Position numbers and translations under genes: made by a program
Part shown: one piece after another, positions 6,485-8,053 of the stretch
Layout of the letters: each line of letters opens with the position of its first letter
Numbering within the stretch: the first letter of the stretch is position 1
Assembly (NCBI RefSeq): GCF_000213785.1
Contig: NC_015557.1
Location: 62,001-126,000, forward strand
DNA: 64,000 nt
Direction of reading: 5' to 3'
Source: Hydrogenobaculum sp. 3684
Lineage (GTDB): Bacteria > Aquificota > Aquificia > Aquificales > Aquificaceae
The notes under the pieces: model-generated
Seen by the model: only the letters and a program-made list of their open reading frames with translations
Databases searched by the model: none
Told to the model about the DNA's origin: nothing

Positions 6485-6511
6485 TTGACAAAAATAAAAA
6501 TATGCTATAAT
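6485..6511 (+). promoter_or_regulatory. sigma-70 promoter of speH
   Basis: A perfect TTGACA (6485-6490) and a perfect TATAAT (6506-6511) stand 15 bp apart, with TGC before the -10. Transcription should begin near 6518, giving a leader of about 136 nt before the speH ATG at 6654. Confidence 0.75.
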
Positions 6512-6517
6512 GATTAA

Positions 6518-6653
6518 TCTATCTTTTTTCTGGAGGTATTTTTATGAGTGAGCAGGATAGCAAATTCCGAAAGCGTGTGGGTGGCGCTGGTAATTTTGAG
6601 CAAGTTAGTTGCTCCACATCTTCTGTTGTGTTGATACCAAGGGAGGTATTGAA
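6518..6653 (+). promoter_or_regulatory. structured 5' leader of speH
   Basis: The leader is clearly more GC-rich than surrounding intergenic DNA and folds by eye. AAATTCC (6562-6568) pairs with GG-T-AATTT (6589-6596), enclosing AGCG (6572-6575) paired with CGCT (6585-6588). A second hairpin is GAGCAA (6598-6603) with TTGCTC (6609-6614). No known riboswitch consensus (SAM-I, II, III, IV, SAH, preQ1, TPP, c-di-GMP) was recognised. The same stretch also carries a small ORF. Confidence 0.5.
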
Positions 6654-6684
6654 ATGGCAAAAACCCTCGGACTCCATATTATAG
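6544..6684 (+). CDS. possible 46-residue upstream ORF overlapping speH
   Basis: An ATG at 6544 with TGGAGG at ideal distance opens a 46-codon frame that ends at a TAG at 6682-6684, 31 nt inside speH and in a different frame. The product (starting MSEQDSKFRKR) resembles nothing known to me. The good ribosome site argues for translation; the RNA pairing in the same interval argues that base composition is set by structure. If translated, ribosomes would pass through the speH start, so it could couple or limit speH translation. Confidence 0.4.
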   Translation: MSEQDSKFRKRVGGAGNFEQVSCSTSSVVLIPREVLKWQKPSDSIL

Positions 6685-7058
6685 CAGACCTTTATGGAGT
6701 TAACCCTGATCTCATTGACAGGGAAGAAGATATCAGACACCTTCTTGAAAATTCAGTAAAAGCAGGAGAGCTTACAAAAATCTCCTCTCATTTTTACCAG
6801 TTTAACCCTCACGGAGCTACGGGAGTTATCCTGTTAGCCGAATCTCATATATCCATTCACACCTGGCCAGAGCATAAAACGGCTACCGTGGATGTATTTA
6901 CCTGTGGAGACCCATCAAAGGCTTATAGAGCTATGGACTATATAATAAACTCTTTATCCCCTACTCACGTAGACAAAAAAGTCTTTGATAGAGGTATCAT
7001 AGAAGATTCAAAAGAAAAAGATGTGCTTTGGATAATGTCGAAAGCTGGTTGTTGCTAA
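6654..7058 (+). CDS. speH: S-adenosylmethionine decarboxylase proenzyme
   Basis: A 134-residue prokaryotic class 1b AdoMet decarboxylase. The chain self-cleaves between E63 and S64 (LAES-HISIHTWPE), turning S64 into the pyruvoyl group; H69 and C84 are the other processing and catalytic residues. Decarboxylated AdoMet is the aminopropyl donor for spermidine and longer polyamines common in thermophiles. GGGAGGT lies before the ATG, which fixes the start. dprA overlaps its 3' end by 31 nt. Expression is likely governed through the structured leader and upstream small ORF. MtnP at 61.8-62.6 kb would remove the methylthioadenosine by-product. Confidence 0.95.
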   Translation: MAKTLGLHIIADLYGVNPDLIDREEDIRHLLENSVKAGELTKISSHFYQFNPHGATGVILLAESHISIHTWPEHKTATVDVFTCGDPSKAYRAMDYIINSLSPTHVDKKVFDRGIIEDSKEKDVLWIMSKAGCC

Positions 7059-8053
7059 AATCCGTAAAAGGAATAGGCAACAAGTTATTGTATAAGGCTT
7101 TTAGACATTTTGGTAGTGCCGAAGCTATATTAAAAGCCGATAAAACGTCTTTGGAGCCAATCTTTGGCTCCAAGGCTAAAAATATAGTTTCTAGAGATTT
7201 TGACAGAGATTATGTAAATAACGCTATTGTTAAATTAAAACAGCTAAACGTCGAAGCTATAACCTATGAAAATGAAACATATCCTAAAAACATACTAAAC
7301 CTTCCAGACCCTCCTCCTGTGATATTTTTAAAAGGCAATAAATCTTTGCTTTGTCAAAAATCTGTTAGCATAGTAGGTTCAAGAAAAGCTGCTTTGAGCG
7401 CTTTAAATATGACAAAATCTGTTGTATCAGAACTAAGACAAACTGTGGTATCTGGAGGAGCTGATGGCATAGACTCAAAAGCTCATCAAAGTGCTTTGGA
7501 AAGCTCTATTCCCACTATAGCTGTTCTTGGTTTTGGATTTTTGTATGCAAAACAAAGTCTTTTTGGAGAGATTCTAGATAAAAACGGTCTTTTGTTAACG
7601 GAGTTTTTACCTCTTGAAAAACCTTCAAAATATACGTTTCCAATGAGAAACAGAATAATAGCCTCTTTAGGGGAATATCTTTTGGTTATGCAAGCCTCTT
7701 CTAAAAGCGGTGCTCTTATAAGTGCGTATTGGGCTTTTAAATTAAACAAAAAAGTTTTTGCATATGTGGGAAACCCGGTGGAAGAATTTGAGGGTTGTGT
7801 AAACTTAGTAAGAGAAAATGTAGCTAAGCTTTTTACAAATAAATCCCATCTTTTTAAAGACCTAGATTTATCTTTTGAAAAGCCAGAAAACCAACAAAAT
7901 TCCATACTTTCTTTTCTTGATAAACCATGCACTTTTGATGAACTTTTAGTAAAAACAAACTATGACGAGGAAAAACTTACAATGGAGCTTACCATGCTTG
8001 AAATAGAAGGCTATATATCAAAAGACGGTGCTTATTTTGTAAAAAATGCATAG
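7028..8053 (+). CDS. dprA: DNA processing protein DprA (Smf)
   Basis: A 341-residue DprA, which loads RecA onto incoming single-stranded DNA in natural transformation. Residues 9-60 form a helix-hairpin-helix/SAM-like region (VKGIGNKLL). The Rossmann core starts at about 110 with V-G-S-R-K (116-120) and S-G-G-A-D-G-I-D (142-149). A winged-helix DML1-like tail ends the chain. It begins at a TTG inside the end of speH (31-nt overlap); later TTG codons at 7049 and 7052 are alternatives. rsmE overlaps its end by 8 nt. ComFC at 15.7 kb is a second competence-related protein in the window. Confidence 0.9.
   Translation: MDNVESWLLLKSVKGIGNKLLYKAFRHFGSAEAILKADKTSLEPIFGSKAKNIVSRDFDRDYVNNAIVKLKQLNVEAITYENETYPKNILNLPDPPPVIFLKGNKSLLCQKSVSIVGSRKAALSALNMTKSVVSELRQTVVSGGADGIDSKAHQSALESSIPTIAVLGFGFLYAKQSLFGEILDKNGLLLTEFLPLEKPSKYTFPMRNRIIASLGEYLLVMQASSKSGALISAYWAFKLNKKVFAYVGNPVEEFEGCVNLVRENVAKLFTNKSHLFKDLDLSFEKPENQQNSILSFLDKPCTFDELLVKTNYDEEKLTMELTMLEIEGYISKDGAYFVKNA

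Follow-up and report, generated by a model that had tools for sequence, protein, structure and literature searches.

The sequence analyzed here, referred to as the window, is a stretch of 64,000 nt from the 1,552,775 bp chromosome of Hydrogenobaculum sp. 3684 (NC_015557.1). It carries speH, the sole AdoMet_dc gene that a Pfam profile search detects in the genome, which has 99% identity to speH of a second genome from the same genus (G040). The preliminary description had placed before it a 46-codon upstream ORF (uORF) with a strong ribosome site, running 31 nt into speH, and its coordinates, frame, and overlap were all reproduced (Table 1). The two genes are read in different frames and overlap by exactly 31 nt. 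In the window, the uORF ends in KWQKPSDSIL-stop, and the first codons of its C-terminal core encode the Shine-Dalgarno (SD) sequence of speH. Using the window as the only source for a background rate, an overlapping uORF of this type was found at one of the 27 genes with a recognizable ribosome site, and that gene is speH. Downstream, an ORF at 7028 to 8053 that is DprA-like by sequence overlaps the end of speH (7028 to 7058) by 31 nt, provided that its TTG start has been placed correctly, and it is probably cotranscribed with speH in an operon.

Table 1. Features of the speH locus, in window coordinates
Feature	Position	Strand	Basis
Sigma-70-type promoter	-35 TTGACA 6485-6490, -10 TATAAT 6506-6511	+	Sequence; 15-nt spacer, TG before the -10 box
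uORF Shine-Dalgarno, TGGAGGT	6531-6537	+	Sequence
Leader ORF (uORF), 46 codons, ATG start, MSEQDSKFRKRVGGAGNFEQVSCSTSSVVLIPREVLKWQKPSDSIL-stop	6544-6684	+	ORF call and orthologues across the order
uORF conserved C-terminal core, REVLKWQKPSDSIL-stop	6640-6684	+	Frozen speH third positions; motif at speH only
uORF stop, TAG	6682-6684	+	Position fixed 31 nt inside speH
speH Shine-Dalgarno, AGGGAGG, within the uORF	6640-6646	+	Sequence; GGAGG invariant in alignments A1 and A2
speH, AdoMet decarboxylase proenzyme (MAKTLGLHIIADLYG...)	6654-7058	+	ATG at 6654; Pfam PF02675 AdoMet_dc, E = 5e-38
Small hairpin GAGCAA-GTTAG-TTGCTC, within the uORF (putative element)	6598-6614	+	Four Hydrogenobaculum genomes; Hydrogenobaculum only

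The promoter had been called perfect, which is true of its two consensus hexamers alone because the spacing is 15 nt and not 17 nt; the TTGACA/TATAAT pair is therefore not reported by a consensus scan that allows spacings of 16 to 18 nt. The hexamers place the leader at about 135 nt, in line with the 136 nt given before. The promoter prediction is supported by conservation, since 101 of 102 Aquificales genomes have a -10 box matching at least five of six positions no more than 75 nt ahead of the uORF. The leader was also correctly said to be richer in G+C than its surroundings, with 45 to 47% over 6540 to 6629 versus 15 to 23% just upstream.

Conservation of the uORF in the Aquificales

The start regions of speH were taken from 123 genomes of the phylum. 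Within the Aquificales, which here comprise the families f1 (Hydrogenobaculum, Hydrogenobacter, and other Aquificaceae), f2, and f3, a short ORF precedes speH in all 22 genera and, by a simple rule, in 97 of 102 genomes. In all three families the uORF starts with ATG and its TAG stop falls exactly 31 nt inside speH, and a 6 to 7 nt SD match stands before it in 94 of the 102 genomes. The first stop in the uORF frame falls at +31 in 22 of 22 genera, where codon resampling expects 3.7; the genera are not fully independent, so that probabilities at this level are indicative and the tree-based count described below is the stronger test.

The uORF ranges from about 19 to 49 codons across the order. 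Its N-terminal part reads ..LLKNLDKEER or ..LFKNFSREDR in f1, MGSxSPT.. in f3, MRQIKKFFKEVE in f2, and MSEQDSKFRKR.. in Hydrogenobaculum, and its C-terminus is KW(Q/K/S)(K/R)PSDC(I/T)(S/L)-stop in nearly all families and KWQKPSDSIL-stop in Hydrogenobaculum. The PSDC element is not universal, being PSDS in the window and HWES in f4. Among 61 genomes searched, 56 contain the C-terminal motif, each once and at speH alone, and the five that lack it are three Hydrogenobaculum genomes (PSDS), G005, and G020, in which speH is fragmentary. Occurrences elsewhere in these 61 genomes, which a leader-peptide regulon would show, were not found.

Outside the order, two f4 genomes of the same class share the stop position and have a different end, RWQKHWESTL-stop. 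At about 40 readable speH loci from outside the Aquificota, no comparable ORF was seen, and three of these loci have weak candidates with GTG or TTG starts. Judged from the few outgroups, the arrangement appears to predate the order and the PSDC ending appears to be typical of the Aquificales. Most genomes of family f5 lack an overlapping uORF, and the uORF is thus dispensable for speH. We had considered f5 as a clean negative control, which it is only in part: genus g26 has an overlapping uORF with a TTG start, and other genera have a tiny TTG-initiated uORF. The argument is therefore placed on G005 and on other phyla.

Several further observations were made during this survey. The tiny ORF of f5, TTG AGT GTY ATY TAA (MSVI-stop), occurs in four genera (L131, L132, L127, L124, and L133) with synonymous differences only; it lies behind an SD about 35 to 50 nt upstream of speH, does not overlap it, and would seem to be a distinct uORF of minimal length. 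Genomes of f3 encode a second AdoMet_dc homologue (L202-L219) starting ..GFGPHLMVDGY, which may be one of the SpeD-derived decarboxylases that have been described (PMC10407285). Finally, a typical Aquificaceae speH with its uORF is found on a contig filed under an 'Acidobacteria bacterium' MAG (L063, RFFP01000026.1), a record that is probably mislabelled or contaminated.

Selection on the encoded peptide

In the overlap, the frames are offset so that every speH third codon position coincides with a second codon position in the uORF. At speH codons 5 to 9 (CTC GGA CTG CAT ATC), synonymous diversity is 0.007 in f1 and 0.02 in f3; at the other conserved speH codons it is 0.52 and 0.44, respectively. 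Parsimony steps were counted for 103 genomes on a tree built from speH codons 14 onward. Third-position changes at codons 2 and 4 to 10 amount to 2, 0, 0, 1, 2, 2, 2, and 1, the mean for 74 downstream codons is 23.6, and none of 100,000 permutations gave counts as low as those of the overlap. Codon 3 is the exception, with 11 third-position changes that correspond to a K/R swap in the uORF in most genomes. The wobble positions of the uORF are free, as the first positions of speH codons 4 and 10 changed 12 and 26 times. Codon 10 ends in A (TTA, CTA, or ATA), the base that completes the TAG, in every genome except G005.

G005, a member of f2, provides a natural experiment. Its uORF, MLTFFEKIP-stop, terminates before speH, and speH codons 6, 7, 10, and 12 are GGT, TTA, ATT, and GAT, where its five readable f2 relatives retain GGA, TTG or CTG, ATA, and GAC. 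This one genome accounts for the single third-position change at codon 6 in the order and for the one at codon 10. The release of these codons where the frames no longer overlap is what a coding constraint, rather than an RNA motif, would produce. We treat G005 as supporting evidence from one genome that falls short of proof.

The part of the uORF that does not overlap speH is also coding. Over 39 disjoint pairs, pN/pS is 0.47 in the uORF frame (95% CI 0.36-0.61), whereas the two remaining frames give 0.69 and 0.92. In 97 of 102 genomes the ATG that comes first after the SD belongs to the uORF frame, although its distance takes about a dozen values, and uORF lengths differ by multiples of three. 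Four Hydrogenobaculum genomes have 99, 108, or 117 nt between the start of the uORF and the AAATGG junction, and many uORF changes among them are synonymous. Some of the C-terminal sequence is forced, because the codons for K/R-E-E/D are the speH SD and W arises from ATG plus G. Taken together, the frozen third positions of speH, the free wobble positions of the uORF, and the release of sites in G005 indicate that the C-terminus and stop of the uORF are almost certainly selected at the level of the encoded peptide.

Search for RNA structure in the leader

The leader had been described as structured, yet its fold is no better than that of shuffled sequence: the minimum free energy is -32.7 kcal/mol versus -33.2 ± 3.4 kcal/mol for shuffles (z = 0.16), and 114 of 200 shuffles were as good. 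For RNA ALTERNATIVES, RNAalifold on 20 f3 leaders (A1) and 19 f1 leaders (A2) returned no covarying pair in either alignment. In the consensus of both families, GAGG in the SD of speH is matched to CCUC in codons 4 and 5, and a small hairpin, GG.CUGC/GCGG.CC, is added. A hairpin over the speH ribosome site (about 6633 to 6650) weakens to 3 to 4 pairs in two other Hydrogenobaculum genomes. Another, at 6598 to 6614, is kept in four Hydrogenobaculum genomes, with its loop altered in one, but it is coding and absent from other genera. The only terminator-like stem is weak, lies inside the uORF, and does not rise above shuffles.

It had also been suggested that the leader is a new RNA that senses AdoMet, its decarboxylated form, or polyamines. 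A G+C-rich leader in an A+T-rich genome would fit such a riboswitch, but the G+C-rich part is coding, and the fold score and lack of covariation given above speak against it. No known riboswitch consensus had been recognized, and a search of the leader against Rfam likewise gave no match. An aptamer would have no room, because the leader before the uORF in relatives is about 20 to 40 nt (about 23 nt in f1 and f2 and 40 nt in f3, with about 7 nt allowed between the -10 box and the transcript start). We consider a riboswitch extremely improbable. The absence of both covariation and a conserved ORF in relatives had been named in advance as what would count against control by the leader; covariation is indeed absent, and the ORF is clearly conserved.

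A second, separate constraint may exist beside the uORF. CCCTC at speH codons 4 and 5, the complement of the speH SD, is found in most genomes even where no overlapping uORF exists, and because CTC at codon 5 is retained even in G005 and f5, a weak SD/anti-SD contact is possible. Within f1, nearly all genomes use GCG or GCA for Ala-11 and all use GAC for Asp-12; across f1, f3, and f5, Asp-12 is almost always GAC. A different feature was seen in f3 leaders (for example L017, L148, L193, and L196), where a GC-rich hairpin, usually GGGC..GCCC, occupies the first 20 nt or so from the uORF start codon. This hairpin, which may adjust how efficiently the uORF is initiated, survives even though register, loop length, and peptide differ.

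Proposed control of speH and its known counterparts

We propose that the uORF is a cis-acting leader peptide gene that is dual-coded with the start of speH. The 5' end of the mRNA would lie shortly before the uORF, and ribosomes would load on the uORF's own site, read across both the SD and the ATG of speH, and finish at the UAG (+29 to +31 of speH). Because each of these ribosomes would cover the speH start, uORF translation would govern speH initiation. A terminating uORF ribosome would span about +11 to +43 of speH, beside or overlapping an initiating one; if it were held there, with the UAG in the A site, it would collide with an initiating ribosome, which requires speH to about +15. The nascent C-terminus, KW-x-(K/R)-PSDC-(I/T)-(S/L)-stop, could make RF1-dependent termination slow or conditional; leader peptides with slow or arrested termination are usually recognized by a fixed stop combined with conservation of the nascent C-terminus. 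The most likely signal would be a polyamine or some other pathway product, resulting in feedback repression as with the mammalian and plant AdoMet decarboxylase uORFs.

Based on the sequence comparisons, we assign a probability of roughly 0.6 to the reading that a dual-coded leader peptide controls speH translation in cis, probably via slow or regulated termination at the UAG. Its parts differ in strength. That the uORF controls speH in cis is likely, arrest at the uORF stop codon comes just short of an even bet, and a polyamine-type ligand is a tentative assignment. The most specific version is possible but doubtful: a nascent-peptide sensor of polyamines (or of AdoMet or decarboxylated AdoMet) that would mediate feedback on AdoMet decarboxylase through arrest at a stop inside speH, would have arisen independently of the mammalian and plant uORFs, and would be encoded by the same DNA as the first ten codons of the enzyme.

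The main rival to conditional termination is coupling by traffic alone, in which ribosomes on the uORF block or unfold the speH start and the peptide has no role of its own. Competition or occlusion by position could regulate speH without peptide-specific arrest, and such a view would be content with the usually strong uORF SD and the fixed overlap geometry. It is also compatible with G005, which has kept speH and now shows the classical layout of a stop next to an SD. Coupling does not, however, need fixed second-position nucleotides, and the frozen sites together with the in-frame pN/pS of 0.47 show selection on amino acids. Typical coupling has the stop within about 10 nt of the start (PMC3711429), but in 22 of 22 genera the uORF stop lies 28 nt past the speH start, and G005 alone resembles the classical case. 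We judge this explanation unlikely. Selection at the peptide level would also suit a free-standing small protein of about 19 to 49 residues that is released and acts in trans, for example on SpeH. That idea is hard to reconcile with a C-terminus held at a set distance from the stop behind an N-terminus of variable length and sequence, with a motif never found away from speH, and with an overlap that would be costly for a trans-acting gene; it is accordingly very improbable.

Alternatively, the invariant ACCCUCGGACUGCAUAUCNUAGC could be an RNA structure or a site for a protein or sRNA, with the uORF as a by-product. The SD/CCUC pairing and small hairpin in the consensus of both families, as well as the codon preferences at codons 5, 11, and 12, are what such an element would produce. 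Against this, no pair covaries, the half of f3 with GCT has a U-U in the hairpin, and the Hydrogenobaculum change from TGC to TCC breaks the hairpin while it is a conservative C-to-S replacement in the peptide. The loop is as frozen as the stem save for the uORF wobble base (26 steps), and the remaining sites are freed in G005, where the frame is cut. Short helices of this kind are also weak at the growth temperatures of thermophiles. An element at the RNA level is thus improbable, less so than the trans-acting peptide. A programmed frameshift yielding a uORF-SpeH fusion was rejected as well: the overlaps, read by eye, contain no conserved X XXY YYZ in the required -1 phase, and the conserved SpeH N-terminus would be replaced.

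The leader peptide reading has parallels in eukaryotes: in animals and plants, upstream peptides are already known to regulate AdoMet decarboxylase. The mammalian AdoMet decarboxylase uORF encodes MAGDIS and stalls at its own stop codon with polyamines (PMC4505036), and arrest at the stop codon of the plant AdoMetDC1 uORF is cited in PMC9648851. Like the mammalian (AMD1) and plant uORFs, the Aquificales uORF is a short ORF with a conserved peptide located 5' of the same polyamine enzyme. The eukaryotic uORFs act on scanning ribosomes, whereas the present uORF is bacterial and dual-coded with the main ORF over 31 nt. MAGDIS, of six residues, is not known to overlap its main ORF. A comparison by eye with MAGDIS revealed no homology beyond the -IS-stop ending of f1 and f3. 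Kinship through the D-(C)-I-S-stop ending of many species was rejected: the window and f2 have -IL-stop or -TL-stop and the ending is not conserved in f4 either, so that the likeness is probably a coincidence.

The earlier notion of a bacterial equivalent of the AdoMet decarboxylase uORF thus holds for the anatomy, which is order-wide, selected as a peptide, and confined to speH; the regulation is putative. The sequence evidence suggests that a small upstream peptide controls speH in the Aquificales, as in animals and plants. Searches of open-access papers turned up no description of an AdoMet decarboxylase uORF in bacteria, and subscription papers may hold one. A conserved counterpart in this deeply branching bacterial order would add another instance, apparently independent, of the same strategy applied to the same enzyme. 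It would also offer a compact and thermostable system for asking by what means polyamines might be sensed by a ribosome together with a short nascent peptide. The locus is also a clear natural case of an overlapping frame that shapes synonymous codon choice in a metabolic gene, and G005, where the frame is cut and the codons are released, serves as its internal control.

Among bacterial systems, the nearest are conserved leader peptides before a decarboxylase of polyamine synthesis, namely SpeFL/ORF34 of speF in gamma-proteobacteria. SpeFL is an ornithine sensor that blocks RF1-mediated release (PMC8429421), and ORF34/speF involves RNA refolding and Rho-dependent termination (PMC6386406, PMC8429421). 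Control at the leader stop is likewise proposed here, and the UAG of the Aquificales uORF is also an RF1 codon. As in the SpeFL/TnaC type, a conserved C-terminus lies at a fixed distance from the stop and the N-terminus is variable. The Aquificales uORF differs from SpeFL/speF in that its stop is inside the downstream gene and no sequence similarity is present; its overlap with speH and the absence of covariation leave no structured, refolding RNA in between. TnaC and other termination-arrest leaders share conserved C-terminal residues at a fixed stop codon, but sequence, gene, and geometry differ from those of TnaC, and arrest is inferred in the present case. Ordinary overlapping genes have a similar operon-like stop/start overlap, but here a conserved mini-ORF takes the upstream place, the length of the overlap is fixed at 31 nt, and purifying selection acts on the peptide. 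Control by leader peptides is a known principle; the gene, the phylum, and the dual-coded geometry would be new.
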